Below, in pieces: positions 3,983 to 30,074 of a stretch of 32,256 nt of DNA. The DNA is from a bacterium (GTDB taxonomy: Bacteria; Zhuqueibacterota; QNDG01; JABMRT01): positions 1 to 32,256 of the forward strand of contig DSAP01000139.1 of NCBI GenBank assembly GCA_011046415.1. The letters are read 5' to 3'. Position 1 is the stretch's first letter. Every line of letters begins with the position of its first letter. The translations under genes were made by a program, and so were the position numbers. The notes under the pieces are model-generated. The model worked only from the letters and a program-made list of their open reading frames with translations, was not told where the DNA came from and searched no databases.

Positions 3983-4472
3983 ATATTATTATCTGGTCGC
4001 CCAACTCCCCTCGCTCGTGTTCGACCGCGAGAATCCGATCTCCGTCCAAACCTTCCTCGAAGAAGCGGAAAAATGGCTTTCGGTTTCCGATTTTAGGGCG
4101 CTTAAACAGGCACGGCTCGACGATCCGGAAAATCGTTCCGGGGGCCCCGGCGTATGGCGGAGATACGGGGAATTCGAAAGCCGGTTCCGCAGGGAACTGG
4201 GACAGTGGCGACAGGCCCTCCGCGACGGATCCGAGACACGGCCCGATACCTTCTCACCCTCCCTCGTCAAAGAGGGAAATCCGCTCGAGGTCGAGAAAAA
4301 ACTCCTCGCCAGGCGCTGGGAGGTTATCGCAGAGGAAGAGAAGGACCATCACTTCGATCTCGGCTTCCTGGTCCTGTATTACCTCAAACTCCAGATTCTC
4401 CAGAGGCTGTCTGTTTTTGACAAAGAAAAAGGCATGGAACACTTTCAAACGATGAGCAGGGTGACTGTATGA
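3975..4472 (+). CDS. DUF2764 protein of the V/A-ATPase operon
   Basis: This is a 165-residue soluble protein whose N terminus (YYYLVAQLPSLVFD) matches my knowledge of the DUF2764 family, which sits between atpE and atpA in spirochaete, chlamydial and Bacteroidetes V/A-ATPase operons. It has no membrane segment and is mostly helical and charged. Its biochemical role is not established. Because operons of this type have no recognisable subunit C gene, it may take the place of the C/d-type socket protein, but that is inference. It overlaps atpE by 8 bases and atpA by 4, indicating coupled translation and fixed stoichiometry with the complex. Confidence 0.82.
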   Translation: MDKYYYLVAQLPSLVFDRENPISVQTFLEEAEKWLSVSDFRALKQARLDDPENRSGGPGVWRRYGEFESRFRRELGQWRQALRDGSETRPDTFSPSLVKEGNPLEVEKKLLARRWEVIAEEEKDHHFDLGFLVLYYLKLQILQRLSVFDKEKGMEHFQTMSRVTV

Positions 4473-6199
4473 CGCAACAGAGAGGGACGATAACCGGCAT
4501 TAACGGCAATATGCTGACCGTCGAATTCGAAGGAACCATCACGCAGAACGAGGTGGGATATACGGTGCGGGGTGATGAACGGCTGAAGTCGGAGGTGATC
4601 CGGATCCAGGACAACCGGGCATTTCTTCAGGTTTTCGAGAGCACCAAGGGACTCGCCGTCGGCGACACAGTGGAATTCACGGGCGAACTGCTCTCCATTC
4701 AGCTCGGCCCGGGGTTGCTGGGCCAGATTTTCGACGGACTCCAGAATCCGCTTCCTGAACTAGCAGAGGCGCACGGATTCTTCCTCCCACGCGGTGTGAT
4801 CCTCGATCCGCTCGGCGAACGCAGGTGGCAGTTTACGCCCGATGCCCGGAAGGGGGATGTGGTCCGCGCCGGAGATGTGCTCGGTTCCGTTCCGGAGACC
4901 CAGTTCACCCATCGCATCATGGTCCCTTTTGATTTTCAGGGTGAATTTACGATCGAGTCGATTCAAGACGAGGGTGAATATTCAGTCCGCGATGAGATCG
5001 CGACGCTCAAAGGGCCCCGAGGCCAGACGCACTCGCTTTCGATGCAGTTCAGCTGGCCCGTCAAACTGCCCGTCCGTGCGTACCGGGAAAAGATTTTGCC
5101 CACCGAGCCTCTGGTGACCCGGGTCCGGATCATCGATACCTTCTTCCCCGTGGCAAGAGGCGGCACGTACTGCATCCCCGGTCCCTTCGGGGCGGGCAAG
5201 ACCGTGCTTCAGCAGATTACCAGCCGCTATGCCGAGGTGGACATCGTGATCATCGCGGCGTGCGGCGAACGCGCGGGCGAGATCGTGGAGACGATGCGGG
5301 AATTTCCTGAACTGATTGATCCGAGGACCGGGCGGTCGCTTATGGAGCGGACGATCATCATCGCCAACACCTCGTCCATGCCGGTGGCGGCGCGCGAGGC
5401 CTCGGTATACACCGCGACCACGCTGGGTGAATACTATCGCCAGATGGGTCTCGACGTCCTCCTGCTTGCCGATTCGACTTCCCGCTGGGCACAGGCCATG
5501 CGCGAGCTCTCCGGAAGGCTCGAAGAGATACCCGGAGAAGAAGCTTTTCCCGCCTATCTTGAATCACGCATCGCGGAGTTTTATGAAAGAGCCGGTCTCA
5601 TTCAGTTAAATGACGGCGGGCAGGGAAGCCTGACCATCGGTGGAACCGTGTCTCCCGCAGGCGGCAACTTCGAAGAACCGGTAACCCAGGCCACGCTGAA
5701 GGTGGTGGGCGCGTTCCACGGCCTTACGCGTGCGCGATCCGATGCGAGGCGTTATCCGGCGATCGATCCGCTCGATTCCTGGTCCAAATACGAGAGCATC
5801 GTGCCGGCCGAAACGATCCGGATTTCCCGGGAGTTTCTCGAGAAGGGATCCGATGTGCGCCAGATGATGATGGTCGTCGGTGAGGAGGGGACCTCTCTAG
5901 ACGATTTCATTGTGTATCTGAAATCCGAATTTTTCGATGCGGTTTATCTCCAGCAGAACGCCTTCGATAAGGTGGATGCCGCGACGAGTCCCGACAGGCA
6001 GAAGTACAAAATGGAAAAGATCCGGGAGATTCTCACCACGACATTCCATTTCAAGGACAAGGAGACGGCCCGGACCTTCTTCTACGATCTGAGACAGAAA
6101 TTCATCGACTGGAATTACATCGAATGGAAATCGGATGAATTCAAGAAACAGGAAAAAGAGATTGACGCACTGATAAAAGGAAATGCCGAACATGCGTAA
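4469..6199 (+). CDS. atpA: V/A-type ATPase catalytic subunit A
   Basis: The catalytic subunit hydrolyses or makes ATP in the A3B3 head. The 576 residues include the N-terminal beta barrel (about 1-70) and the long non-homologous insert typical of V/A-type A subunits (about 110-190). The P-loop GPFGAGKT is at 238-245, followed by the GER motif with the catalytic glutamate at about 266-268. Walker B is [16 protein letters not shown] at about 331, and the C-terminal helical bundle completes the protein. All catalytic motifs are intact. ATG 4469 overlaps the DUF2764 gene in an ATGA-type junction, and the end overlaps atpB by 17 bases. Confidence 0.98.
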
Positions 6200-7523
6200 A
6201 GTTTACAACAAGGTGCTCAGCGTCGCAGGCAATGTCATCACCGTCAAGGCGGAGGGTGTGGGTTACGAGGAACTGGCGGAAATCACCACACGGCGCGGCA
6301 AGTCGCTTGCCCAGGTCATCAAGCTAGACGGGGACATCGTGTCGCTGCAGGTATTTGCAGGCAGCCGCGGAGTCTCGACGTCCGACGAAGTGCGGTTTCT
6401 CGGCCATCCCATGCAGGTGGCATTCAGCGACGACATGCTGGGCCGGATTTTTACCGGCTCCGGCGTGCCGCGCGACGGAGGACCCGAAATCACGGAAAAC
6501 CTGATTCCCATCGCCGGTCCTTCGGTGAATCCCGCCAAGCGGATCATACCCAAACGCATGATCCGCACCAACATTCCCATGATCGACGTGTTCAATTCGC
6601 TCGTCGGATCCCAGAAACTGCCGATCTTTTCCGTCTCCGGCGAACCGTACAACGAACTGCTCGCCCGTATCGCACTGCAGGCCGAGGTAGACATGATCAT
6701 CCTCGGCGGGATCGGCCTGAAATTCGACGAATACATGCGGTTCCGGAACCGTCTCGAGGAGGGCGGCGCACTGGGCCGTTCCATTTTCTTTATCCATACG
6801 GCGGCAGACCCGGTGGTCGAGGGCCTCATGGTCCCCGACCTGGCTCTGGCTGTGGCCGAGAAGTTCGCGCTCCAGGGCAAGGAAGTCCTCGTCCTACTCA
6901 CCGACATGACCAACTTCGCCGACTCCCTGAAAGAGATTGCGATCACGATGGAGCAGGTGCCTTCCAACCGGGGATACCCCGGCGATCTGTACAGCCAGCT
7001 CGCGTCGCGCTACGAGAAAGCGGTGGACTTCGAAGGCGCGGGCGCCATCACCATCCTGGCCGTGACGACCATGCCGGGCGACGACGTCACGCATCCGGTT
7101 CCCGACAATACCGGTTACATCACGGAGGGGCAGTTTTACCTGCGAAACGGACGGATCGAACCCTTCGGCTCCCTTTCGCGCCTGAAACAGCAGGTCAACG
7201 CGGATACGCGCAAGGATCACCGCGCCATCATGGACGGCATGATCCAGCTTTACGCCCAATATCTCGAGAGCCAGGAGAAACGGTCGATGGGTTTCCGGAT
7301 GTCGCCCTGGGACGAGAAACTCCTCAAGTACGGCAACCTGTTTGAATCCGGGATGATGGATCTGTCCGTCAATATCCCGCTCGAAGAGGCGCTGGAGAGG
7401 GGCTGGTCCATTCTGGCGCAATGTTTCAAGCCGGAAGAAACAGGACTGCGGTCCGAACTGGTCAAGGAGTTCTGGCCGAAGACGGTCAAAGCGGAAGAGG
7501 AATCCGAAGCCGTGGAGGCATAG
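6183..7523 (+). CDS. atpB: V/A-type ATPase subunit B
   Basis: This non-catalytic nucleotide-binding subunit alternates with A in the head. At 446 residues it is of normal length. In place of a P-loop it has the degenerate [18 protein letters not shown] region that marks B subunits, followed by [17 protein letters not shown] and [16 protein letters not shown]. The ATG at 6183 has its purine-rich sequence (AAAGGA) too close. A second in-frame ATG at 6192 has that sequence about 9 bases upstream and gives the N terminus MRKVYNKV, so 6192 may be the real start. Unlike its upstream neighbours the gene is followed by a 138-base gap before atpD. Confidence 0.97.
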
Positions 7524-7661
7524 TCAGGCGTGGAACGAGAGGCAGGCGGCAAGCAAAAGGTCCGCGGTGCGGGGTACTGGGTGGGAGGCAGCCGGTTCGA
7601 TATTCGCAAAGTTTGGTGTTTTGAAATCAGTGTCATGTAATTCCAGAGAACGTGGTTTCTT
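7524..7661 (+). other. unexplained spacer inside the V/A-ATPase operon
   Basis: This 138-base stretch separates atpB and atpD in an operon whose genes otherwise mostly overlap. It has no credible gene, promoter or terminator. It contains G-rich tandem-like wording (GGTGCGGGGTACTGGGTGGG at about 7566) and an AT-richer second half, which looks like decayed intergenic repeat material rather than coding sequence. That reading is a guess; only the absence of a gene and the compositional break are seen directly. Confidence 0.3.
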
Positions 7662-8273
7662 ATGGCTAAAGTCAGACTGACAAAGAATGAACTGAAGAAG
7701 CAGAAGGATAATCTCAAGCGATTCACCCGGTATCTTCCCACACTTGAATTGAAGAAAACGCAGCTTCTCATGGAGATCCGGCGGATTCAGGGCGAGATCG
7801 ACAGGCTTCAGGAGGAGAACCGGCGGGTCGAGAATGAGGTGTCCCGGTGGGTGGATGTCTTCGCGGAAGAGGTCGACCTGGAATCCTATGTCCAGGTCAA
7901 AGAGATCGTCACCGGCGAAGGGAACATCGCGGGCATCGAGATTCCCCTTTTTAAAGATGTGATTTTCGAAGACGTCCTGCCCGACGTGTACGACACCCCG
8001 TTCTGGGTGGAAGCAGGCATACGAGTCCTGAGAGAACAAATCCGGCGCCAGGCCGAATGGCGGATCGCGGAGAAACAGCAGGAGATCGTACGCAACGAAT
8101 TGCGGACCACCATACAGCGGATCAAGCTGTTTGAAGAAGTCAAGATTCCGGAATCCCGTGAAAATATCCGTATCATCCAGATTTTCATGGGCGATCAGAT
8201 GACTGCCGAGGTGGTTCGCGGCAAGATTGCGAAGGCCAAGATTCAGCGTAAGAAAGAGATGAACGCCGCATGA
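7662..8273 (+). CDS. atpD: V/A-type ATPase subunit D (central rotor shaft)
   Basis: Subunit D is the long coiled-coil axle that rotates inside the A3B3 head, the counterpart of F-type gamma. The 203-residue product begins with the family pattern LTKNELKKQKDNLKRF and TLELKKTQLLMEI. A long N-terminal helix is followed by a central region (about 70-125) and a C-terminal helix rich in basic and acidic residues. Length and layout are normal. The stop overlaps the start of atpI by 4 bases. No separate subunit F gene, which normally pairs with D, is found in the operon. Confidence 0.95.
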   Translation: MAKVRLTKNELKKQKDNLKRFTRYLPTLELKKTQLLMEIRRIQGEIDRLQEENRRVENEVSRWVDVFAEEVDLESYVQVKEIVTGEGNIAGIEIPLFKDVIFEDVLPDVYDTPFWVEAGIRVLREQIRRQAEWRIAEKQQEIVRNELRTTIQRIKLFEEVKIPESRENIRIIQIFMGDQMTAEVVRGKIAKAKIQRKKEMNAA

Positions 8274-10042
8274 TTGTACCCATGAAACAGGCCGCCCTGC
8301 TGGTCAGCATCCGGGCGCAGAAAGATGCGTTGAAGAAATTACGCAAGTTCGGTGTATTGCATCTCCGGCATGTTCAGCCGCCGCAGTCCGACGACCTCGA
8401 TGCGCTCGTAAAACGGCTGTCGCAGGCCGAACGCGCCCTGTCGGTTCTCGAAGAAGCCGTTCCTTCTGTCGAATCTCCTCCTTCCCGCGATTCATCTCAC
8501 GAAGCGGAAACGGCGGTTCGGCAGCTTCTGGAACGGGTCACGGAGAAAGTGTCTTTGGGGGACCGGCTTGATGAGAAACGTGACATCCGGCGCTGGTTTA
8601 CGACCTGGGGCGCCGTGAGTCTTGCGTCCGTCGAGGTGCTGGAGGCCGCCGGCGTGAAGATGCGCTGTTATCAGACCGACAGGGGCGCACTCAAAAAATT
8701 ACCCGAAGGTGGCGATCTCCACATCCTCGGTGAAGAGAAAGGCGCGGTCTTTGCCGTGCTTTTCACGGAAGATCCTGAACAAGAACTTGATCTGAAAGAA
8801 GATATCATGCCGCGCGTCGAGGTTTCCGCACTGGATGCCGAAATCGCTTCGCTCGAGAAAAAAATCATGACACTCGAAACGGAGATCTCCAGATTCGCCG
8901 ACCGGAAACAGGCCATCCGGTCCCATATCGCGGCCCTGAAAAAAGAAAAGGAATTTCACGCCGCCCTCGCGGGCATGGGCGCATCAGAAGGGTTTGTCTA
9001 TCTCCGGGGATTCCTTCCCGAAGACAAAACGGATGCCCTGAAATCACTGGCCCGTTCCGAAGGCTGGGGGGTCATTCTTTCCTCTCCCGAAGACCCGGCG
9101 GAGGTGCCGACACTGCTCAGGAATCCGAAAGTTCCGCGCATCATCGAACCCCTGTTCCGTTTCATGGGCACCCTTCCCGGATACCATGAAGTGGATGTCA
9201 GTTTTGTGTTCCTTCTGTTTTTTAGCCTGTTCTACGCCATGATCATCGGGGATGCGGGTTACGGATTGATTTTCCTCGCGGCCACCGCATTCCTCAGGTC
9301 CCGGTTCAGGGATGCGCCCGCCGAGCCGTTCGCCCTGTTTTATGTGCTCAGCGTGGCCACCTTGATCTGGGGTGGACTGACCGGAACCTGGTTCGGGTCG
9401 CGGACCCTTGCCGAATGGCCTCCCCTGCGCCGACTCGTCATCGAACCGATGTTCAGTTTCGGCGTATCCGGTGAGACCACCCTGTTCATGATACGGTTTT
9501 CTTTCATACTCGGCCTGATCCATCTGCTGGTCGCCCATTTCATGGCATTCCTCAAGAAACTGCCGTCGATCAGGGCGGTTGCGGAGCTGGGATGGATGCT
9601 GATCTGTGCCGGCATGTTCTTCGTCGTCGACCTGCTTGTCCTTTCCCGGCCCTTTCCGAAAGCGGCGGGCATGCTGCTGGTCCTCGGACTTGCCGTTGTG
9701 GGACTCTTCAAGAATTTCAATAAACACCCCCTGAAAATGATCACCGGGTTCTTCGGTTCCATCGCCGGATCGATTCAGAATGTGATCGGGGCGTTTTCGG
9801 ATATCGTATCCTATATCCGGCTTTTCGCCGTAGGACTGGCGAGCGTGACCGTGGCGGCGACATTCAATGACATGGCCGGCGGTGTTTTCGCCCCGATCGT
9901 GCTGGTTCTGGGCCACGGATTGAACATCGTCCTGTGTCTGATGTCGGTCATGGTGCACGGCGTGCGGCTCAACATGCTCGAATTTTCCGGACATCTGGGG
10001 CAGGAATGGACGGGAAACCCCTATGAGCCATTCAGGGAATAG
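8270..10042 (+). CDS. atpI: V/A-type ATPase subunit I (membrane stator, a-subunit)
   Basis: Subunit I forms the ion half-channels next to the rotor ring and anchors the peripheral stalks. The first roughly 300 of 590 residues are a soluble, helical, charged arm. The rest carries several membrane segments beginning at about residue 312 (VSFVFLLFFSLFYAMIIGDA). The essential arginine that faces the rotor carboxylate is seen in SYIRLFAVGLA as Arg517. At 590 residues it is a little shorter than many archaeal homologues but complete. Translation starts at ATG 8270, overlapping the end of atpD, and a 136-base gap follows before atpK. Confidence 0.97.
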   Translation: MIVPMKQAALLVSIRAQKDALKKLRKFGVLHLRHVQPPQSDDLDALVKRLSQAERALSVLEEAVPSVESPPSRDSSHEAETAVRQLLERVTEKVSLGDRLDEKRDIRRWFTTWGAVSLASVEVLEAAGVKMRCYQTDRGALKKLPEGGDLHILGEEKGAVFAVLFTEDPEQELDLKEDIMPRVEVSALDAEIASLEKKIMTLETEISRFADRKQAIRSHIAALKKEKEFHAALAGMGASEGFVYLRGFLPEDKTDALKSLARSEGWGVILSSPEDPAEVPTLLRNPKVPRIIEPLFRFMGTLPGYHEVDVSFVFLLFFSLFYAMIIGDAGYGLIFLAATAFLRSRFRDAPAEPFALFYVLSVATLIWGGLTGTWFGSRTLAEWPPLRRLVIEPMFSFGVSGETTLFMIRFSFILGLIHLLVAHFMAFLKKLPSIRAVAELGWMLICAGMFFVVDLLVLSRPFPKAAGMLLVLGLAVVGLFKNFNKHPLKMITGFFGSIAGSIQNVIGAFSDIVSYIRLFAVGLASVTVAATFNDMAGGVFAPIVLVLGHGLNIVLCLMSVMVHGVRLNMLEFSGHLGQEWTGNPYEPFRE

Positions 10043-10178
10043 GATCATGATGCCGGGGACGGACTTGGATCACGTGCGGAGAGAACAAAAGACAGAAAGC
10101 AGACACGGACACTCAGGGAATCCCTGATCACGATTTGTTTTAGAAAATGATCACATCAAATAGGAAAGGAAATCCGCG

Positions 10179-10619
10179 ATGACTCAATTGGGCGACATGA
10201 ATCTTTCACTGGTACTGGGAGCAATCGGTTCGGCGCTGGGCACCGGCGTCGCCGGTATGGCCGCCATCGGCGCCTGGAAGAAAGCCTATCTTCAAAACAA
10301 GGCGGCCCCCTTTCTCCTCGTGGCTTTCGTGGGCGCGCCGCTGACCCAGACCATTTACGGGTTTATCCTGCGCAACCAGATTCTGGGTGCTTACTGGGAG
10401 GATGTCCCCGCGGGATGGCCGATCCTCGTCGGCGCGATCGCGGGTGTTGCGATCGGGCTGTCGGCCCTCATGCAAGGCAAGGCCGCGGCCAAAGCCTCGG
10501 ATGCACTGGCCGAGACGGGCAAGGGTTTTGCTAATTATATCATGGTGGTCGGCATCATCGAGACCGTGGCTCTTTTCACCATGATCTTCGCGATGATCGC
10601 CCTGCCACAGGCTGGATAA
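10179..10619 (+). CDS. atpK: V/A-type ATPase subunit K (rotor-ring proteolipid), probably Na+-type
   Basis: The ring subunit carries the transported ion. The 146 residues form four membrane segments from a duplicated hairpin, as in bacterial V-type K subunits. The ion carboxylate is present only in the second hairpin, as Glu128 in IIETVALF. Side-chain ligands known from Enterococcus hirae NtpK (Thr64, Gln65, Tyr68, Gln110, Glu139) align with Thr56, Gln57 and Tyr60 in PLTQTIYGF, Gln99 in LMQGKAAA, and Glu128. This suggests Na+ rather than H+ coupling; the call on ion type is inference. A ribosome site (AGGAAAGGA) precedes ATG 10179. A terminator about 130 bases downstream ends the operon. Confidence 0.95.
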   Translation: MTQLGDMNLSLVLGAIGSALGTGVAGMAAIGAWKKAYLQNKAAPFLLVAFVGAPLTQTIYGFILRNQILGAYWEDVPAGWPILVGAIAGVAIGLSALMQGKAAAKASDALAETGKGFANYIMVVGIIETVALFTMIFAMIALPQAG

Positions 10620-10747: not shown

Positions 10748-10791
10748 GCGGAATGCAGGGTGCCACATCCTGTATTCCGCAGCTGTTTTTT
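10748..10791 (+). terminator. strong intrinsic terminator of the V/A-ATPase operon
   Basis: A 12-base stem, 10748-10759 with 10769-10780, is complete if one G-U pair is allowed. It has a 9-base loop and is followed a few bases later by six T residues at 10786-10791. It lies between atpK and the TPR gene and marks the operon boundary. Confidence 0.85.
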
Positions 10792-10902: not shown

Positions 10903-13446
10903 GTGGTCGGCCTGCACAATAGAGGGTGGTTATCGGGACAGGCGGTGAAACCGTCTGCCTTGGGTTTTTATTGTCTCTTTGTTCTCTCTCTGTTCCTTGA
11001 CCGGGGTATACTGCCGGCCCAGGAATCCAGTGATCCTGCGTACCGTCCCCGATATTACGCCCGGCTCCAGAAAGATGAGTTCACGAATCTGCTCCTTCCC
11101 AAAGAACAGATGTTGTTGATCTTTGTTCGTCAGATTCACGACGAGATGGCGCAGAGGCGCAGGGCGGGCGTTTCTCTTTCCCGGCTCGGGATCGATGACC
11201 TGGTTTCTCCCGATTCCAAAATGATGGATCTGTACACCAAAGAACTGGAAAAAGTCCAGTCGCTCACGAAAGAAATCGAGGCGCTCGAAATACGGGCCAA
11301 ACGACAATCCGATTTCGAGGTGTTAAATGCAATCGCCATGTTGAGACGCAGGATTCGGGAAATGGTAGAGACACATTCCGTGCCGGACCTGCCGGACGGG
11401 GTGTCCGGAGGAGATGGTTTTCCTCCCGACCAGGAAACCCTTGTCTTAAAGACGGCCCCCGCTTCAGCAGAAAGGAAAACGACGGATTCAGAAGACCTGT
11501 TCGAACAATGGCAGTACAACCGTCTTTTAAATTACAAGCTCAAGCTGACACAGTATGAACTGATCCATGCCAAGCTTCTTCGGGGTGGATCCGAAAGCGA
11601 AAACGAACGGATGTTCAAACGGGATATCCGGGATGCCTTTGTGGCTTATTCTGCCGGTGAATTTACCCTGTCCCGGCTCCTTTTCAGGCGGCTGCTGAGC
11701 ACCTACCCCGATCGCCGTCTGGATGACGTGCTTTTTTACGCCGGTGAATCCTCCTATGCCCTGAACTATCTGGACGAAGCCCTGGATTCTTACAGACGGA
11801 TGATTCAGCAGTATCCCGCTTCGGACTATACCGCCAGGGCACTCGTGAAGTTGTTCAATGTGTTTTATATCTATCGCGATAACAAGAAACTGAACAGGAC
11901 ATATGAGACGCTCCGGCGATTCAGGGCGCAACTGGACGATGACACCTGGAACACGCTGACCTATCTTCTCGCGTATGCGGAATTCCGGAACATGCAATAC
12001 CGGGAAGCGATCGGTCATTTCTTCGCCGTCGATCCCTCGCATGCCTATTATTATCCCGCACTGTATCTGGCGGCGACCTGTCAGGTCAACCTCGGGCAGA
12101 AGCATCAGGCAATGCGGCTCTACCAGAAAATAGCCAAAGAACTGAGCGGTCGCCGTTCCAACCCGGTGTTCGGACAGATCAGGAATAATGCCCTGCTTAA
12201 GCTGGGGCTCAGTTATTATGAAACAGGCGAGAATGACCGGGCCATCGCCATACTCGATCAGGTTTCCGAGAGCTCCGATTACTATGACCTGAGTGTGATG
12301 GCCAAGGCCTGGAGCGCCTTCCGGGCCGGCCGACCCGGGGAGACACTGATGAATGTGGATGCGTTGTTTCAGACGTCGGCCGTCTCGGATTACGTGTATG
12401 AGGCCAAATTGCTGGCCGCGAGCGCGAAGGAGCTTCTCGGTAAAAAGGAAGAGGCGCTTTCGGATCTCAGGGAACTGTACCATATCGCCCGCCAGGATGC
12501 CGTGAATCCGGTCTCTCCGTCCGGAATCACGGAAGATGCGGTACGCGCATTGATTGAACCCCTGTCGCCGGGCGAAAAGCGTAACCGGGTGCTGATGCGG
12601 CAGGCCGGAAGGATTCACGAGTTTCTGCATGGGAGGGGAGAGACCCGTCAGACGAAGGACCGTGCCGAGAAGCAGGAGATGAGCCGTTATCAGGCCCTGA
12701 ATATGCAACTGGCCAATCTCGACACCCTGGAGCGCGAGGCGAAGGACAGGGAGGATTCCGAGATGGTTTCACAGATCAGAGGTGTCCGCAGTCAATTGCT
12801 CGTCTTACTCAAAGACGAGACGGGATCACGGGAGTTTGACGACGAAACGGAACGCGATGATGATTTGATCCGCAGTCTGGGCATGACCCGATATTTGAAT
12901 TATACTTTCGAGCGGCTGAATCATGAAGTCCGCCGGGAGAAAGAATTCACGGCGGCGGCTCTTTCAGAAATCGTCGAAGCGATCCGTTCGGCCCGGGAAG
13001 AGGATCAGTACAACAGGGGGCTCAGACTTGAAATCCGTCAAACCGAACTGGAAGATTACCTGTTGAAACTCAATCAATTCGAAGTCTGGATTATCGAGAA
13101 CATCCCGCGATCCGGGCAGATGGACATTTCACAGTGGGCAAGCTTCAGCGGGTATGGTATCAGCAACATCACATTTTCACGGATCAAGGACATCGAGGCA
13201 CGCATGGAAACTCTGTCCCGGTCCGTACAGGGACTGAATACCGTCATTCAGAACAGGCAGATTGCCTTCGAGCAACGCATCCAAGGGCTGATGGACGATG
13301 TGACCCACATCGAGCTTCAGATGCGAAGAGAAGAAAGAAGGCGTGAGACTCTCGAAAAGGAACGTTTTTTCGAAACCCAATACTTTGACAGACAACCCAA
13401 GGAGACATCGGCGGGACCGGTTAGGGAGCCCGCCGCCCGGAAATAA
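10903..13446 (+). CDS. large secreted TPR and coiled-coil protein, first gene of the envelope-motor locus
   Basis: This 847-residue protein is probably exported. A basic N terminus and hydrophobic core (residues about 19-33) end near LPAQES, a plausible signal-peptidase site. A polar, helical N-terminal part follows. TPR-like helix pairs occupy about residues 245-525, for example SYALNYLDEALDSYRRMIQQ and LGLSYYETGENDRAIAILD. Long coiled coils lie at about 585-650 and 690-840, and the tail is Pro- and Lys-containing. The start is GTG 10903, supported by AAGGGGG about 5 bases upstream. The next TPR gene follows after only 8 bases. I do not recognise it as a named family; the context suggests a periplasmic or outer-membrane scaffold for the ExbB/ExbD machine. 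Confidence 0.85.
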   Translation: MVGLHNRGWLSGQAVKPSALGFYCLFVLSLFLDRGILPAQESSDPAYRPRYYARLQKDEFTNLLLPKEQMLLIFVRQIHDEMAQRRRAGVSLSRLGIDDLVSPDSKMMDLYTKELEKVQSLTKEIEALEIRAKRQSDFEVLNAIAMLRRRIREMVETHSVPDLPDGVSGGDGFPPDQETLVLKTAPASAERKTTDSEDLFEQWQYNRLLNYKLKLTQYELIHAKLLRGGSESENERMFKRDIRDAFVAYSAGEFTLSRLLFRRLLSTYPDRRLDDVLFYAGESSYALNYLDEALDSYRRMIQQYPASDYTARALVKLFNVFYIYRDNKKLNRTYETLRRFRAQLDDDTWNTLTYLLAYAEFRNMQYREAIGHFFAVDPSHAYYYPALYLAATCQVNLGQKHQAMRLYQKIAKELSGRRSNPVFGQIRNNALLKLGLSYYETGENDRAIAILDQVSESSDYYDLSVMAKAWSAFRAGRPGETLMNVDALFQTSAVSDYVYEAKLLAASAKELLGKKEEALSDLRELYHIARQDAVNPVSPSGITEDAVRALIEPLSPGEKRNRVLMRQAGRIHEFLHGRGETRQTKDRAEKQEMSRYQALNMQLANLDTLEREAKDREDSEMVSQIRGVRSQLLVLLKDETGSREFDDETERDDDLIRSLGMTRYLNYTFERLNHEVRREKEFTAAALSEIVEAIRSAREEDQYNRGLRLEIRQTELEDYLLKLNQFEVWIIENIPRSGQMDISQWASFSGYGISNITFSRIKDIEARMETLSRSVQGLNTVIQNRQIAFEQRIQGLMDDVTHIELQMRREERRRETLEKERFFETQYFDRQPKETSAGPVREPAARK

Positions 13447-13454
13447 GTCGATCT

Positions 13455-16400
13455 ATGTTTTTCCGTTTATCAATAATCATCCTGGCCTCGGGACTGGCTA
13501 TGCTCTCCACTCCCGGCCATACCTTGCAGGCCGCATCTCCGGATTCGGTTTATCGGGAGTTCTCGTTGTATGAACTGGAAACATTCAGTTCATATTACCA
13601 GCGGGAAATCGATATGCTTCAACATGAAAAAGAGATGCTGATCCGGCAGGGAATCGCTGACGGAGAGCGGCTGCTCGCCACCTCGCCCGATACAGGCGTC
13701 ATGGCGGATATTCTGATCCGGCTGGCGGAGCTCTATTATTATCGGGAAAAGGATGATTATCTCAAAAAGATGGAAGCCTTCCATACAGAACTTGGGAAAG
13801 GGGTCGCCGGTACGGATTCAGCCCTCCAAACCGAACCCCGGCCGGCATTTACCCGCGCCCTGACCCTCTATGACCAGATTATCACGATGTTTCCAAACAG
13901 TGAGATGGTGGACGACGCATTGTACAACAAAGGTTTTTTATATGAAGAGATGGGCGATTATGAAGTGGCCGTATCGACTTATTATAAGCTGATCAAGTCC
14001 TTTCCCTCCAGTTCCTACGTTCCCGAGGCGTATATGCGGCTCGGAGAATACTTCTTCAACCCTCCGAGAAACGATCTGGGAAAAGCCATCGTCAGCTATG
14101 AGATGGTGGTCAATCATCCCTCCCACGTCCGGTATTATGAGGCACTTTACAAGCTGGGGTGGAGCCATTACCGGCTGAGCCAGTACCCCGAAGCCATCAG
14201 TTATTTTACGACGCTCGTCGAAGATCATCAGATCGGGCTCTATCTCAGCCGGCCGGAAGAAGCAGAGACCATGCATTTTCGCGATGAAGCGATCGAATAT
14301 ATCGCGATCAGTTTTCTCGATTTCGGAGGTCCGCAGAAAGCCGGGGCGTATGTCAGACAGATCGGAAATCCCGCGTGGGGCCTCTCCATGCTCGAGAAAT
14401 TGGGCGATATTTATATGAAAGATAAAGAGGATTACCGGAACGCAATCGTGACCTACAGGATACTGCGGGAGCTTTCCCGGAATTCGGACGAAGCCCCGTT
14501 GATCCAGAAAAAGATCGTGGATTGTTATGTCGCACTCAACGAATTCCGGAACGCCTTTGAAGAACGGCTCACCCTTTTTCTGGAGTATCATCCGGGGAGT
14601 ACCTGGTGGGGGCAGCGCCGCAGCGAGAAAAGCAAGCTGAGAACCTACCGGCTTGCCGAAGAGGCGCTCAGGAGAAACGTGAACTGGCTTCTGAAAGAGG
14701 CTGCCGAGAAGCAATCGACCCCTCTCTACGAAATGACCGTCGATGCCGGAAGGCGTTATCTGAAGGCTTTTCCTGAAGATCTCCAAGCCTATCAGGTGCG
14801 CTGGAATCTGGCCTTCATCCTGGACACCCGGCTGAACCGTTACCAGGAGGCCCTGCAGGAATACCTGACCCTGTCCATGGTTTATCAAGATGAGGCATAC
14901 GAAACCTTCGCAAGAGAAAGAGGGCTGAATACGATTCAGGATGCCGCGGAAAACGCGATCGTGGTGGCGGACATCCTCTATCAGGAAGAACTGAAACAGA
15001 ACCCCGCGGTCCAGCACACAGAAAGGGACTTCTTCGACGATATGGTGCTCGAACCAGTGTCGCTGTCCGCTGCGGCAGGATGGCTGGCGCTGGCCTATGA
15101 TAATTTTATCAAACTTTTCCCTTTCGACGCCAAGACACCGACCATGCTCGCCAACGCGGGCGCGCTTTTTTCAGCCCACAATCAATTTGATGCCTCTTTG
15201 AAATATTTCAAGACGCTTGTCCTTTATTTCCCCGAGAGCGAACAGGCGAAGACAATCCAGTATGCCATACTCGAGAACTATTTCGGCAAACGGGACTATG
15301 ACAGTGTCGAACTCCTAGCCAAGAGAATTTTACGGGCCGATTATCCGGCTGAGATCAGGAACAAGACGGAGAGACGGCTTGGCGAGGCCATTTTCCTGCG
15401 GGCCCAGCACTGGTCCGGCAGAGGAGAACCGGAAAAGGCCGCCGAGGAATTCCTGCGGCTGACGCTCGAGGTTCCCAAGATCGCGTTTGCCGATCGTGCC
15501 CTTTTCAACGCAGCCCGGGAGTTTGAGGAGATCAGACAATATCCCCGCGCCATCCGGGCGTATGAGCAATTGCGTGCTTCCTATCCCGCATCTTCGTTGT
15601 TCCTGACGGCGACCAATAATCTGGCTATCGATTATGTGGAGATCGGGGAATACGGACGCGCCTCGGATCGTTATCTGGAATTGAGCAATTTTTCCAAGGA
15701 TTCCGTGCAGATACACGACGGATTATACAATGCATACTTCTTTGCCGACAAGGCCGGAGACTGGAACCGGGCAATCGTCTGTGCGGAACGTTATACGTCC
15801 CGGTATGCCCAGCGCCCTGAAGCGGCCGGGATCTCGTTTCGCCTGGCCGCTTATGCCGACAGTCTGGGACAGGATGCGCGGAAACGGGCTTACCGCCGTC
15901 GTTTCCTCGAACAATATTCCGGAACGGGTCTCGCGGTCGAGACGGCCTGCCGGCTCGGCAAAGAATATTTGGCCGCCGATTCCCTGGCGCAGGCCGAGGA
16001 GGCATTCAACCGGGCTCATGACCTGAACCAGGCGCTGCATCGGAATCATGGAGAAGGGAATGATTTTTACGCCGCAGAGGCATTGATGTCCGTTTGCCGC
16101 TTACTCAGAGAGAGACTGGAGGCGATTCGCATCGCAGATTCCGGCACGGCCAGGTCATCGACGGTCGATCGGCTCGTGACGCTTCGCGACGGACTCATCC
16201 GCCGGTATCGGGAAACGGTGGCCTATCAGACGATTCATGCGCCCGAGGCGCTGTTCCGGATCGGAGAGACCCAGGAGCGGTTCGCCGCTATCTGGGCGGG
16301 TCAGTCCGTTGTGGAAGCCGATCCGGCGAAGAAAGCCGTACTGGAGAAAACCCTTCTCGAGGAGACCACGCGCGTGCTGAGCGACGCGTTTCTTTCCTAT

Positions 16401-17726
16401 TCGAATGCACTCCGAATACTAAGACAATTTCAAGAGAAACAAAACAATGTCGATAATCCCGATTCCGCCGGACACGACAGCACGGCGATTGTGACGGAAG
16501 GCTGGATGACTCGTTCGGGCGAGAAGATTTCGGAGATGCTTTACCGGATCGCCGAGACCAGCGCCAAAGCGATCGACAACCTGCTGGCGGTTCCCGTACC
16601 CGCCGATCTGCGTGCGGAGGCCCGTCTCGAATACAGGAGCCAGGTCCTCCTGAAGGCCATTCGCCCGCTGCTCGATACGGTTGTCGGGGCCCATCTCCGC
16701 AATCTGTCGATTTCGGACAGCCTGGGACTGGACAATCCCTGGATGGAGGCCTCCCGACAGAAAGTATTGACATCTCTCACAATCCTGGGCCAGGCCTATT
16801 CCGACCTTTCCAGAGAAGCCCTCGCATTGTTTGAAGCGTTCCGTCTCTCCTATCTCAACGAGATGAAGACCTCCAGACCGGAGGAGGCCTCTGACACGCC
16901 GGCGGCCATGGCCACCCTGATCGAGTCGGCCAGGACGTATGCGGCGGCCGGCCTCGAATTCTATGCCTCCGGCCTCAGGCGTCTGAAAGCGGAAAAATTC
17001 ATCCCGAGGATACAGACGCAATTCAGGGATACGGTCCATGCTTTTATCGTTGACACCGATGGTCTCCTTTCATCTCTGAATCAACAGGCACTCGATGACC
17101 AGTCCCGTGCGGATTCCCTGTTCAGGGCCACTCAGGACATTCTGTATGAAAACATGCTGGCCGCTTTCGAAGACAACGTCTTTTTTATCGGTGAAAACCG
17201 GAAAGCGTTGCTGGAGTCCGCATTTCGGTTTTATACCGACGAACAAGATTCGAGGGCCGTCGCGTTCGGTCTCGATTTGTTGAGTCTGGATCCGGAACTT
17301 TACGCCGGACGTTTGGAGATTCCTCTGGACACCCTCGTCGTTCCGATGGATTCGACCTGGCTGGTCGCGTCGCAGCCCCTTACCGGCCTGGAACAAGCCA
17401 TTCCCGATTCGAACCGATGGATTCTTTTTTCCTCCTGGCGATCTCCTCAATCCGGAACCGAAACCGGACCGCTGCGTTACATCGGAAAAGGTTTCGACAT
17501 TCAGGGATATCCGGTCGGCGGACGTATCGAAACAGGGTCGTTTTCCGTACAGGGCTGTTATCTCAATGGACGACGGATCCTATTGAACAAAACGGACGGG
17601 ACTATTCAGATCAAGGATGGGCTCAGGGCGAACAGCAACTGGCTGGCCTTGCAGGTTTCAGAAGCGGAGTCCGTCTCCTTGAACGGAGAAATATGGATTC
17701 AATATGTTGCCGGGGAGGGGAAATGA
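13455..17726 (+). CDS. giant secreted TPR protein with C-terminal beta-rich domain
   Basis: This 1423-residue protein has a clear signal peptide (MFFRLSIIILASGLAMLSTP, then a cleavage region near LQAASP). TPR-type helix pairs are dense at about residues 128-258 (LYDQIITMFPNSEMVDDALY, EAYMRLGEYF), 540-625 and 655-855. A long helical region follows to about 1300. The last 110 residues look like a beta-sandwich with many aromatic and Gly residues, unlike the rest. Periplasmic TPR arrays commonly bind other proteins or peptidoglycan; the terminal domain may bind a glycan, but I cannot show that. It lies 8 bases after the first TPR gene, and its end overlaps the upstream-extended frame of the small protein that follows. 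Similarity to BamD-like or YbgF-like repeats is general only. Confidence 0.87.
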   Translation: MFFRLSIIILASGLAMLSTPGHTLQAASPDSVYREFSLYELETFSSYYQREIDMLQHEKEMLIRQGIADGERLLATSPDTGVMADILIRLAELYYYREKDDYLKKMEAFHTELGKGVAGTDSALQTEPRPAFTRALTLYDQIITMFPNSEMVDDALYNKGFLYEEMGDYEVAVSTYYKLIKSFPSSSYVPEAYMRLGEYFFNPPRNDLGKAIVSYEMVVNHPSHVRYYEALYKLGWSHYRLSQYPEAISYFTTLVEDHQIGLYLSRPEEAETMHFRDEAIEYIAISFLDFGGPQKAGAYVRQIGNPAWGLSMLEKLGDIYMKDKEDYRNAIVTYRILRELSRNSDEAPLIQKKIVDCYVALNEFRNAFEERLTLFLEYHPGSTWWGQRRSEKSKLRTYRLAEEALRRNVNWLLKEAAEKQSTPLYEMTVDAGRRYLKAFPEDLQAYQVRWNLAFILDTRLNRYQEALQEYLTLSMVYQDEAYETFARERGLNTIQDAAENAIVVADILYQEELKQNPAVQHTERDFFDDMVLEPVSLSAAAGWLALAYDNFIKLFPFDAKTPTMLANAGALFSAHNQFDASLKYFKTLVLYFPESEQAKTIQYAILENYFGKRDYDSVELLAKRILRADYPAEIRNKTERRLGEAIFLRAQHWSGRGEPEKAAEEFLRLTLEVPKIAFADRALFNAAREFEEIRQYPRAIRAYEQLRASYPASSLFLTATNNLAIDYVEIGEYGRASDRYLELSNFSKDSVQIHDGLYNAYFFADKAGDWNRAIVCAERYTSRYAQRPEAAGISFRLAAYADSLGQDARKRAYRRRFLEQYSGTGLAVETACRLGKEYLAADSLAQAEEAFNRAHDLNQALHRNHGEGNDFYAAEALMSVCRLLRERLEAIRIADSGTARSSTVDRLVTLRDGLIRRYRETVAYQTIHAPEALFRIGETQERFAAIWAGQSVVEADPAKKAVLEKTLLEETTRVLSDAFLSYSNALRILRQFQEKQNNVDNPDSAGHDSTAIVTEGWMTRSGEKISEMLYRIAETSAKAIDNLLAVPVPADLRAEARLEYRSQVLLKAIRPLLDTVVGAHLRNLSISDSLGLDNPWMEASRQKVLTSLTILGQAYSDLSREALALFEAFRLSYLNEMKTSRPEEASDTPAAMATLIESARTYAAAGLEFYASGLRRLKAEKFIPRIQTQFRDTVHAFIVDTDGLLSSLNQQALDDQSRADSLFRATQDILYENMLAAFEDNVFFIGENRKALLESAFRFYTDEQDSRAVAFGLDLLSLDPELYAGRLEIPLDTLVVPMDSTWLVASQPLTGLEQAIPDSNRWILFSSWRSPQSGTETGPLRYIGKGFDIQGYPVGGRIETGSFSVQGCYLNGRRILLNKTDGTIQIKDGLRANSNWLALQVSEAESVSLNGEIWIQYVAGEGK

Positions 17727-17730
17727 ACCC

Positions 17731-18087
17731 ATGAAACGGATGATGTTCTTTTCTCTGCTGCTTTCCTGCGGGCTGGCCGGATCGGGTTATTGCGATCCGG
17801 AAAGCATGACAAATCCGGACTCTTCGCAAGTCAAGGCACAAGACGCGGGTTCCGATGAGGGCGAACTCGTACTGGAAGCGATCGAAATCAGGGGACGCGT
17901 GGAGAGACCGGGCGTCATCATCCTGCCAAAACGGATGACGCCGCATATCAAAGAAGTCGAAATCAACCGGAGTTTTGAAGAAGAGGTGAAAAACGGTGTG
18001 GGTGATTTGCCTCAACCGGATCAGGTGTTACGACGCCTCGAACCCGTGAACAATATTAAAAAAGCGGTTGAAAAAGAACGCCAGTGA
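17731..18087 (+). CDS. small exported protein or lipoprotein of the ExbB/ExbD locus, family not recognised
   Basis: The product has 118 residues from ATG 17731, which has a GGAGGGG ribosome site about 10 bases upstream. The frame is also open from 17704, but that would put nine odd residues before the signal sequence. The N terminus MKRMMFFSLLLSC could be a short lipoprotein signal with the lipobox Cys at 13; alternatively it is an ordinary signal peptide cut after GSGYC. The mature part is acidic, then has the compact motif LEAIEIRGRVERPGVIILPK and a charged helical C terminus. I do not know the family. Its place between the TPR genes and the ExbB gene suggests an accessory part of the same machine. 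The promoter for exbB lies in its last codons. Confidence 0.72.
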   Translation: MKRMMFFSLLLSCGLAGSGYCDPESMTNPDSSQVKAQDAGSDEGELVLEAIEIRGRVERPGVIILPKRMTPHIKEVEINRSFEEEVKNGVGDLPQPDQVLRRLEPVNNIKKAVEKERQ

Positions 18088-18096
18088 TGCTATATT
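18068..18096 (+). promoter_or_regulatory. extended -10 promoter before exbB
   Basis: TTGAAA at 18068-18073 and TATATT at 18091-18096 are spaced by exactly 17 bases, and TG one base before the -10 forms an extended -10 element. It starts inside the 3' end of the small exported-protein gene. Transcription would begin near 18103, about 35 bases before the exbB start, so the motor genes can be expressed separately from the TPR genes. Confidence 0.6.
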
Positions 18097-18137
18097 CTTT
18101 TTTTCATCGAATGACAGGTATTGGGGGAGGAGATTAG

Positions 18138-18788
18138 ATGACCGAATTTTGGCAGAGTTTTACCCCGGGATGGAGCGGGTGGATATTTATGTGGATTTTA
18201 CTGGTCGCCGCAGCCTTTGTCATCGCCGTGGCGGTTGAACGATTCCGCTATGTTTTTGGAAAGGCGAATATCGATGCCGCACGATTCATGATGCAGGTCC
18301 GTCATTATGTGGAGGCCAAAGATTACAAACAGGCTATCTCAATGTGCCGGCGTCTCCAGGACAAGGCCCTTCCGCGGGTCGTCCTGTCGGCCCTTGTCAA
18401 AGCGGCGAAGAATCCGAAAGCTACATTCCGCGTTCTTCAAACGGCGGTGGATGAGGGCACGCTGGAAGTGATCCCGAAACTTCAGGCACGCACCAATTAT
18501 CTGGCGATGATGGGCAACGTGTCGACCCTCATCGGACTGATGGGCACCATCTACGGACTCATCCTGTCTTTCCGATCGGTCTCGGCGCCCGGAATCGATG
18601 TCGCCGAGAAATCCCGGCTGCTTGCCCATGGAATCGCCGTGGCTATGAATACCACGCTCACCGGGCTGGCCATCGCCATCCCGGCCATCCTTTCCTATAC
18701 CATCCTGAACAGCAAAACCACGCGGATTATCGATGAGATCGATGAGCATACCGTCAAGCTGATCAATCTGATTGCCGAAGGGGAATGA
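18138..18788 (+). CDS. ExbB/TolQ-type ion channel subunit
   Basis: This inner-membrane protein forms the pentameric stator of ion-driven motors (ExbB, TolQ, AglR, MotA family). In 216 residues the first membrane segment is at about 14-34, a cytoplasmic domain follows, and two further segments lie at about 121-145 and 165-190. Conserved threonines of the channel are present (Thr137 in LMGTIYG, Thr173 in MNTTLTGL). The Glu found in E. coli ExbB at position 176 aligns with Val168 here (GIAVAM), which is unusual. The start at ATG 18138 has AGGAG 5 bases upstream, and a promoter lies at 18068-18096. The last bases overlap the first exbD gene. Sequence alone does not say whether it powers transport, motility or outer-membrane upkeep. 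Confidence 0.95.
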   Translation: MTEFWQSFTPGWSGWIFMWILLVAAAFVIAVAVERFRYVFGKANIDAARFMMQVRHYVEAKDYKQAISMCRRLQDKALPRVVLSALVKAAKNPKATFRVLQTAVDEGTLEVIPKLQARTNYLAMMGNVSTLIGLMGTIYGLILSFRSVSAPGIDVAEKSRLLAHGIAVAMNTTLTGLAIAIPAILSYTILNSKTTRIIDEIDEHTVKLINLIAEGE

Positions 18789-19330
18789 ACGGCATGGCCC
18801 TCTTTCAGTCAAGGAGATCCCGGCACGGATTTGAGCTCGACCAACCGAATATGACCCCGATGATGAACCTGATGGTGGTGTTGATTCCGCTCCTCTTAAC
18901 ATCTGCGGAATTTGTACGTCTCGGCGTGATCGAACTCAATCTGCCTCCTGCGGCCGCGGGTCCCGAGGGAAAAGAACTGGCCGGCCTGCCGGTCGAGACG
19001 TTCCAGAAGCTGGATCTGTCCGTCACCATCACGGATCAGGGTTTTTTTATTTCGAGCGCCCTGGCCGTGCTTCGGGATCATGCGGGCGGCCCCACCCTTT
19101 CGCTTCAGAATGGACGGTATCCGTTTGCCGAGCTTTCCGAAACACTGTATGAAGTCAAACAAAAGGCGGAAGGTCAATATCCCGATACGGAACAGATTGT
19201 TCTGCTGGCCGAGCCTGAAGTCGATTACCAGACCATCGTGTCCACGATGGATGCGTCGCGGATGTTCAGAAAAAATGGCGAGTTAATTATTCTATTCCCC
19301 GAGGTTTCCCTGAGTGCAGGCATTTTGTGA
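18785..19330 (+). CDS. ExbD/TolR-like protein with Asn in place of the ion-carrying Asp
   Basis: ExbD/TolR proteins have one membrane helix inside the ExbB pentamer and a periplasmic domain. This 181-residue copy has the membrane segment PNMTPMMNLMVVLIPLLL. The Asp that E. coli ExbD carries at position 25, essential for proton flow, is Asn28 (codon AAC at 18866-18868). The periplasmic part is long and includes the typical end pattern PEVDYQTIVSTMDASR. ATG 18785 overlaps exbB by 4 bases; a second ATG at 18794 has better spacing to AAGGGG and would number the Asn as 25. It is followed by a second ExbD that keeps the Asp. It may be a partner subunit in a mixed dimer rather than an independent carrier. 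Confidence 0.9.
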   Translation: MNGMALFQSRRSRHGFELDQPNMTPMMNLMVVLIPLLLTSAEFVRLGVIELNLPPAAAGPEGKELAGLPVETFQKLDLSVTITDQGFFISSALAVLRDHAGGPTLSLQNGRYPFAELSETLYEVKQKAEGQYPDTEQIVLLAEPEVDYQTIVSTMDASRMFRKNGELIILFPEVSLSAGIL

Positions 19331-19381
19331 CACAAAACCGAAGATGAATCGACCCGAAAACAGGATTCACGGCAGCTGACT

Positions 19382-19876
19382 ATGGACTACATTCCTTTAT
19401 ATCGCAGGAAACGAAGAGAGCGGACGGGAGAAATGCGTCTCCAGCTGACCTCGATGATGGATATGTTTACCATCCTCCTTGTTTTCCTGCTCAAGACGTT
19501 TTCCACATACGGTCAGCTGATCAATCCCTCGCAGGATCTGACGCTGCCGACCTCAAGAATACAGAACCCGCCGGAAGTCGGATTGGATGTAACGGTTTCG
19601 AGAGAGTGGATTCTCGTCAACGGAAAACCGGTCGAACGCACTTCGGAACTTCAAAATCCGGAAGGCTATATCCTGACGGGTCTTCAAACGGCCCTAAATC
19701 AATACGCACGTGAGGGCAGACGCCTCGAAGAACAATACGGCACCCGGTTCTCGGGAAAGGTCACGATACAGGGAGATAAAAATCTTCCCTACCGGATGCT
19801 GATCAAGGTGCTGGCGACCTGCGGGCAGACTGATTTTCCGAATATGCGGCTCGTGGTCTATCAGGAAGAAGGATGA
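19382..19876 (+). CDS. second ExbD/TolR-like protein, Asp retained
   Basis: This 164-residue ExbD/TolR family member has a basic N terminus, a membrane helix LTSMMDMFTILLVFLL with the ion-carrying residue Asp27, and a periplasmic domain ending DKNLPYRMLIKVLATCGQTD, which matches the family C-terminal pattern. The usual Thr-Pro before the helix is Thr-Ser here. It lies 51 bases after the first exbD and 7 bases before the AgmX-like gene. With the preceding copy it makes a one-ExbB, two-ExbD set like Myxococcus AglR with AglQ and AglS. I expect it to be the copy that moves ions. Confidence 0.93.
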   Translation: MDYIPLYRRKRRERTGEMRLQLTSMMDMFTILLVFLLKTFSTYGQLINPSQDLTLPTSRIQNPPEVGLDVTVSREWILVNGKPVERTSELQNPEGYILTGLQTALNQYAREGRRLEEQYGTRFSGKVTIQGDKNLPYRMLIKVLATCGQTDFPNMRLVVYQEEG

Positions 19877-19883
19877 CATCCCG

Positions 19884-20954
19884 ATGGCCGGTACAGGACA
19901 AATGGTTTCGACGGATTTTTCACGGTTTTTCCGAAAGACGCCTTTCGGGGATCTCGACCGGATTTTCTGGGTCGCGCTAATCGCGGCGATTCTTCTCGAA
20001 TCGCTGCTCGTATTCTGGATGGCCGGACGTCACGTCGATGCCTATTCCGAGAAAGAAATCGCACGGATTCAGGAACGGTTTGCCAGTTTCATCCTCCAGC
20101 AGGAGGCGAGACAGGAAGTCCTGAGGCCGTTCACCGCACATCAGGAAACACGCACTGGAGAAGAGAGTGCGGTCGGCACACCCGAAGACGCGGCGGCGGC
20201 CGCCCCGCCTTCTGCTTCGGAGGCGGTTGCAATGACCGATGGCAGGACGGACGGGGGTGCCGAACGCCGGACGACGGCCGAAGCGGTGCGGGAATCCCGC
20301 GCACAGATCGCCCGGGAAGTCAGCGGGAAGGGGCTCCTTGCGCTCCTGACCGGCACCGGATCTGCGGCAGAAGGGGAAGCGGTTTCAGGTATTTTCTCGG
20401 GATCGGGCGGATCCGGGATCGGAACGGGTGATCTGGATGACATACTGGGCAGTGTGGGCGGACTCAAAACGCAGGGAAGACCGGGTCTTGAAGGGGACGG
20501 CGGGCCGGGTATCGCCCGCGGCGGCAGGGCGGGAGGCGCGGCGACGATCGATGACCTGGTGACGGCACGGGAGGGAATTTCCTCGGAAGCCCTCACGAGG
20601 AAAGGCGATTTACACATGGATTCACCCACGGAATTCATGGGTGGCGGCACCCGGAGTACGCATCGCAGCCCCGAGGTGATCCACGAAGTCCTTCTCGGTC
20701 ATGTAAAAGCCATCCAGTACTGTTATGAACGCGAGTTGAAACGGGATCCCTCCCTGAAGGGCAAGATGACGGTCCGTATCACGGTGGCGCCCGACGGCAG
20801 CGTCTTCAATGCGGAGGTGATCTCTTCCACCCTGGGGAACGACCGGGTTGACCGGTGCATCGTCTCGCGCATCCAGCTCTGGAAAGATTTCCCGCCGATT
20901 GATCCTGAAGAGGGAAATGTGACGTTCCGGCAGGTCTATACCTTCGGGTATTAG
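19884..20954 (+). CDS. AgmX/TonB-like periplasm-spanning energy transducer
   Basis: The 356-residue protein has a short cytoplasmic N terminus and a single membrane helix at about 27-47 that carries an acidic residue (Glu39 in ILLESLLVFW). A coiled, Ala- and Glu-rich stretch follows, then a Gly-rich flexible linker at about 148-215. The C-terminal domain at about 262-356 contains IQYCYERELKRDP, LKGKMTVRITVAPDGSV and WKDFPP, the pattern of AgmX/PglI (TonB-C-like) domains. Cys280 and Cys325 are placed as in that family and probably form a disulfide. It is the likely output arm of the ExbB/ExbD motor. A GAAGGA sequence about 10 bases upstream supports ATG 19884. TonB itself is an alternative label, but the two-cysteine pattern favours AgmX. 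Confidence 0.9.
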   Translation: MAGTGQMVSTDFSRFFRKTPFGDLDRIFWVALIAAILLESLLVFWMAGRHVDAYSEKEIARIQERFASFILQQEARQEVLRPFTAHQETRTGEESAVGTPEDAAAAAPPSASEAVAMTDGRTDGGAERRTTAEAVRESRAQIAREVSGKGLLALLTGTGSAAEGEAVSGIFSGSGGSGIGTGDLDDILGSVGGLKTQGRPGLEGDGGPGIARGGRAGGAATIDDLVTAREGISSEALTRKGDLHMDSPTEFMGGGTRSTHRSPEVIHEVLLGHVKAIQYCYERELKRDPSLKGKMTVRITVAPDGSVFNAEVISSTLGNDRVDRCIVSRIQLWKDFPPIDPEEGNVTFRQVYTFGY

Positions 20955-30013: not shown

Positions 30014-30074
30014 TTCGTGTTTAAGGTACATCAATCGAAACCATGAATCAAGATGTATTTGAGAAGGATAGCAC

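Follow-up and report, generated by a model that had tools for sequence, protein, structure and literature searches.

A conserved seven-gene envelope locus joining an ExbB/ExbD-type motor with two unequal ExbD proteins to giant TPR proteins in a largely uncultured bacterial phylum

Results and discussion

A seven-gene block conserved across two phylum-level groups

The window analysed here is a stretch of 32,256 nucleotides that represents one whole contig (DSAP01000139.1, here C24) of a draft genome of 3.11 Mb and 92% completeness from a bacterium of the Zhuqueibacterota (assembly GCA_011046415.1). Between positions 10903 and 20954 it contains seven open reading frames (ORFs), all on the plus strand, which code in order for two exported TPR proteins with signal peptides (TPR1 and TPR2), a small exported protein, an ExbB/TolQ-type motor protein, two ExbD/TolR-type proteins (ExbD-a and ExbD-b) and an AgmX/TonB-type transducer. 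Adjacent genes overlap or are separated by gaps of 4-51 bases. We found that this block recurs in dozens of genomes, far above chance, and report as a new observation that its two ExbD proteins are unequal: across two phylum-level groups ExbD-a almost always has Asn at the position where ExbD-b invariably has the proton-binding Asp. An initial annotation, made from the window's sequence, had listed the same seven genes on one strand with short or no gaps, and both the ORF positions and matches to Pfam and NCBIfam models bear out this inventory. Because a strong terminator-like hairpin on the same strand (10748-10780; a stem of 15 pairs and a T run after it) lies between the block and the V-type ATPase genes upstream, the block is probably its own transcription unit.

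The relatives that are matched by a TPR2 profile and carry names are metagenome-assembled genomes (MAGs) of candidate division KSB1 and Calditrichota. Gene order was read from fetched 20-kb regions around the TPR orthologues. Throughout the phylum the TPR1 and TPR2 orthologues lie side by side, and nearly all of the covered loci, which come from KSB1-type MAGs, show the order TPR1-TPR2-small-ExbB-ExbDa-ExbDb-AgmX. A full TPR2 orthologue is present in 49/61 genomes when those at least 85% complete are tallied from our table, and one genome (G020) has a complete but divergent locus. In a second phylum-level group, around G071, a TPR2 relative is found in 21/39 genomes; the motor genes follow it in the same order in 10 of the 12 fetched loci, with the contigs of the remaining two stopping after TPR2, and several of the ten sit between an F-type ATP synthase and aspS. 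Many loci have an ATP synthase upstream, V-type in the taxonomic order of the window's genome and F-type in other orders, and in relatives the block is followed by aspS, a small coiled-coil lipoprotein-like gene, a gene for a LysM protein and phoH. These downstream neighbours are relocated in the window's genome, the LysM protein (67% identical) being encoded on contig C34. In addition, a paralogous locus coding for TPR proteins of ~460 and ~970 residues, a small protein, ExbB, two ExbDs and AgmX is common in the phylum, with none seen in the taxonomic order of the window's genome. The annotation had proposed a self-contained motor of the ExbB/ExbD type, together with a TonB/AgmX-type transducer and TPR proteins, and had named as grounds for rejecting it an order that is not conserved in relatives or TPR genes occurring mostly without ExbB/ExbD genes; we saw neither in the relatives, and the set is kept as a unit in both phylum-level groups.

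One ExbD protein lacks the proton-binding aspartate

ExbD-a (18785-19330, with a possible alternative start at 18794; PF02472, 3e-12) and ExbD-b (19382-19876; PF02472, 1e-13) are encoded directly downstream of ExbB. In E. coli and other systems an Asp in the transmembrane (TM) helix of each ExbD, TolR or MotB protein binds the proton (PMC9389320; PMC12215075). ExbD-b has the canonical residue, Asp27 (codon 19460-19462 in the ORF translation), within the motif TSMMDMFTILLVFLL, whereas alignments place Asn28 of ExbD-a (codon 18866-18868), within the motif PMMNLMVVLIPLLL, at this position. Counting all distinct sequences from the two phylum-level groups, paralogous loci included (n=60 per type), we found Asn in 59/60 ExbD-a and Asp in 60/60 ExbD-b proteins; given the recurrence of Asn in 59/60 homologues, we rejected a sequencing error or local drift as the source of Asn28. 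Among 48 other ExbD ORFs from loci of 11 of these genomes, other tandem pairs included, which served as a control, 46 have the Asp, the two exceptions being one antisense ORF and one Gly. In a maximum-likelihood tree ExbD-a and ExbD-b each form one group (100/97 and 100/99 support). Since both of these groups include sequences from the two paralogous loci and from the two phylum-level groups, the asymmetry probably predates the duplication of the locus, and the Asn would most simply have arisen a single time.

The MotB D22N substitution has been described as a protonation mimic (PMC9389320). Our literature search found no paper on an Asp-less ExbD partner, which is weak evidence of absence as the search covered open-access literature; in the same literature, a search combining KSB1 with ExbD returned just one tool paper. 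Another tandem ExbD pair in G020 (L153, contig C3, 1941-2339) has Gly at the Asp position of its second member.

The ExbB protein and the transducer

The ExbB protein (18138-18788; PF01618, 3e-23) has TolQ as its nearest solved structure, and alignment to TolQ (8odt) indicates that the two pore threonines, Thr137 and Thr173, are retained. In its third TM helix (TM3), V168 (GIAVA) stands where TolQ and ExbB proteins have Glu (GIAEA), and the aligned family has no acid there. Because ExbB lacks an acid at the TolQ Glu position, the Asp of ExbD-b is, as judged from these alignments, the sole acidic residue seen in ExbB, ExbD-a and ExbD-b at the known motor positions.

The transducer (19884-20954; 356 residues) is of the AgmX/GltG/TonB type and consists of a single TM helix, a Gly/Ser-rich linker and an AgmX-type C-terminus. 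The latter matches the AgmX/PglI domain NF033768 with 83.4 bits (cut-off 40) and the TonB-type model TIGR01352 with 34.5 bits (cut-off 27.1), and a family profile recovers TonB structures in PDB at 5e-7. A comparison of the TM helices shows the TonB-like SxxxH motif in many relatives; the window's transducer has AxxxE, with Glu39 at the position of the TonB His, and Glu is found here throughout the taxonomic order of the window's genome.

The exported partners

TPR1 (10903-13446; 847 residues; Pfam TPR_6, 1e-16) has orthologues that adjoin TPR2. Its AlphaFold2 model, with a mean predicted local distance difference test score (pLDDT) of 74 and mostly >90 within the solenoid, shows a TPR solenoid at residues ~230-530 between long helices, one of them of ~85 residues, the long C-terminal helices covering 742-826. 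TPR2 (13455-17726; 1423 residues; TPR_6, 1e-20), with orthologues phylum-wide, combines TPRs at ~130-860 with a helical domain and a C-terminal beta-sandwich, both of which are seen in an AlphaFold2 model of residues 865-1423 (pLDDT 87). The terminal module (17307-17723) is of a sugar-binding type: a family profile matches a lectin (6t0q, 1.8e-15), a rhamnosidase (3w5m, 3e-14) and sugar-binding domains of glycoside hydrolase family 2, the AlphaFold2 strands agree with it, and Pfam Glyco_hydro_2_N is found in 12/31 members. We infer that the end of TPR2 binds sugar, a prediction that is weakest for the window's own genome, in which the module is degenerate. For TPR1 and the C-terminal half of TPR2 Foldseek returned nothing beyond generic helical-repeat matches, the beta-sandwich being unmatched when the whole model was used. 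In the second phylum-level group three TPR2 orthologues (L175, L177 and L181) reach ~2000 to 2700 residues.

The small exported protein (17731-18087; 118 residues) has the conserved core IEIxGxVEKPxVxIxPKR...RSFxxEIK in an alignment of 16 orthologues and paralogues, and no family match in Pfam or NCBIfam. Its listed ORF begins at 17704 and overlaps TPR2; the alignment and the signal peptide favour the ATG at 17731, and we corrected the start to this position.

Relationship to known energizers

The annotation had likened the block to AglRQS-type machines, a comparison that fits the gene set in kind but breaks down at one defining feature, the Asp reported in both TolR homologues. The published core complex comprises aglRQS, gltG and the TPR genes gltC/D/E, which in non-deltaproteobacteria and Geobacter are clustered in one region together with one additional gene whose function is not known (Luciano et al. 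2011, PMC3169522). The block resembles this set in encoding together one TolQ-type and two adjacent TolR-type proteins, a transducer with an AgmX/PglI tail over the cut-off and TPR partners; a GltG profile matches in 14/14 members, and the paralogous locus of many genomes, with a weak FHA domain on its transducer in many KSB1 genomes as in GltG, echoes the Glt/Nfs duplication. However, the conserved TM Asp is reported in both AglQ and AglS (PMC9389320), whereas ExbD-a is without it; family profile searches detected no FHA domain on the window's transducer, which scores 81 bits against the GltG equivalog cut-off of 650; and among the TPR models GltC is matched weakly (18.7 bits, cut-off 450) and GltD and GltE are unmatched. 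The TPR proteins of the block are also much larger, with a sugar-binding-type end and a conserved small exported protein beside them, no barrel or Group A gene was recognised within the block, and in relatives it is placed between ATP synthase and aspS. Because of the missing Asp, the lack of a detectable FHA domain, the distance from GltG and GltC and the giant TPR protein with its sugar-binding-type module, we do not file the block as a member of the AglRQS-Glt group, but set it apart as a separate variant that, by analogy, probably works like an Agl-Glt machine. That it is a true AglRQS-Glt (or Nfs) machine, moving proteins or polymers along the cell in gliding or surface coat assembly, is unlikely. 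The motility role suggested in the annotation is unsupported, and Luciano et al., in defining the core complex, argue against motility being driven by it alone (PMC3169522).

The same genome encodes other systems of this kind: contig C14 has a Ton-like ExbB-ExbD-ExbD-TonB operon, in which each ExbD has the Asp, contig C93 has a Tol-like locus of ExbB, ExbD, a PD40 (TolB-like) protein and a TPR protein, and there are 22 TonB-dependent receptor barrels. Given this separate Ton-like operon, Tol-like locus and set of receptors, the seven-gene block is a third, separate energizer. The annotation's remark that no TonB-dependent receptor and no tolA, tolB or pal gene lies nearby is correct for the window, and the conserved neighbourhood likewise has no receptor. 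Its view that ordinary uptake or a Tol function is less likely is strengthened by the separate loci. We accordingly find it improbable that the block is a variant Ton system in which TonB-dependent barrels are energized for outer-membrane uptake or export with the TPR proteins as accessories, comparable to TonB2-type systems and exbB-exbD1-exbD2-tonB operons. The placement of its motor proteins in the ExbB and ExbD families by profile, a transducer whose C-terminus and TM motif are TonB-like, the 22 barrels and the occurrence of two-ExbD Ton operons elsewhere, Myxococcus included (PMC6434023), would fit such a system, but the genome already has its dedicated operon on C14, and the block differs in its unequal ExbDs, its ExbB without the TM3 Glu, the absence of a receptor and two giant TPR proteins as fixed partners. 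More improbable still is a Tol-Pal-like system that serves to constrict the outer membrane and keep it intact, with the TPR proteins in place of CpoB/YbgF, which the TolQ-like ExbB, the single-pass transducer, TPR parts that score with YbgF/CpoB-type TPR models, the housekeeping neighbourhood and the near phylum-wide presence might suggest, but against which stand the separate locus on C93, the lack of a TolB propeller or Pal at the block and in the window, and the generic nature of the TPR similarity to YbgF.

The MotAB and GldLM 5:2 rotary motors share with the block a presumed pentamer and dimer and an acidic residue on the axle; in those motors the axle is described as a homodimer that has the acid in each copy, whereas the block has two different ExbDs, of which one is acidic. 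ZorAB, too, is a motor of the MotA/ExbB family. As a candidate, Zorya was rejected, since ExbB matches ZorA just weakly (2e-4) and the other Zorya proteins were not found.

A proposed trans-envelope machine with a mixed axle

We propose, with a probability of roughly 0.6, that the seven proteins form one trans-envelope machine, in which an ExbB ring and a mixed ExbD-a/ExbD-b axle generate force that passes through the transducer to the TPR proteins and a glycan-type load. ExbB, probably a pentamer, would hold an axle of one ExbD-a and one ExbD-b. The Asn of ExbD-a would resemble a permanently protonated Asp, leaving ExbD-b with the only proton-binding Asp, and ion flow acting on this single residue would move or rotate the axle. 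The transducer is predicted to dock on ExbB through its single TM helix, and its flexible linker to pass force to TPR1, TPR2 and the small exported protein. TPR2 would present its sugar-binding-type module to the load, which on account of this module is probably a glycan or an envelope structure that carries glycans (lipopolysaccharide, surface polysaccharide or peptidoglycan). The locus is present almost constantly and among the same housekeeping genes, which suggests a basic task in the envelope more than motility; we consider housekeeping work on the envelope or on surface glycans likelier than gliding.

A more specific version, which we advance tentatively and hold somewhat short of even odds, is that the axle is an obligate heterodimer with a single proton site, the Asn being a fixed mimic of the protonated state, such that each ion drives one larger step (e.g. 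72 degrees) or one-way movement rather than alternating 36-degree steps. Such motors would constitute a separate ancient branch across two phylum-level groups, paired with giant glycan-handling TPR proteins.

Several points weigh against the proposed machine. Roughly one in five of the 61 genomes lacks the main locus, which is hence not universally essential; one paralogous locus (L079, in G037:C56, 6519-12490) encodes TPR1, TPR2, the small protein and the transducer without ExbB and ExbDs between them; and one ExbD-a (L170, 13669-14271) has Asp (MPFMDLCCVL). ExbD-a could dimerise with itself or be a non-conducting partner. The window's TPR2 copy is below Pfam detection for Glyco_hydro_2_N, and the beta-sandwich may be structural rather than glycan-binding. 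In their own right, the Asp of L170 marks a reversal that occurred naturally among the Asn-bearing ExbD-a proteins, and the motor-less L079 is a possible relic or a user of another motor.

Current rotary models of MotAB, ExbBD and TolQR assume two equivalent axle acids (PMC12215075), and published accounts describe it as not known whether the two different TolR homologues of AglRQS pair as a heterodimer (PMC9389320; PMC9120999). The natural Asn/Asp asymmetry is evolution's own experiment and bears on the construction of such motors; both the heterodimer and a one-acid motor become directly testable with an ExbB and two small genes. A largely uncultured phylum also gains a probable envelope machine that is near-universal in it.

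Additional observations on the genomic context

The window genes flanking the block include parB, a gene for an M23 peptidase, the V-type ATPase, comF, gapdh, pgk, tpi and cysS. PADLOC found no defence system, and a tblastn search of plasmids with ExbD-a and the transducer as queries gave no match. Directly upstream of the paralogous locus lies a gene for a 366-residue exported protein of no known family (L080, 7180-8280; L079, 12500-13600), which could be an outer-membrane partner. Across the window (3380-10619) and L047-L081, the ATP synthase beside the main locus is V-type in the taxonomic order of the window's genome and F-type, at the same site, in other orders; it is F-type in the second phylum-level group as well. 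One ATPase type has apparently been exchanged for the other in place. The other identified genes of the window are on the plus strand, and a minus-strand ORF (27728-30082) codes for a 784-residue protein with a spermine/spermidine synthase domain.

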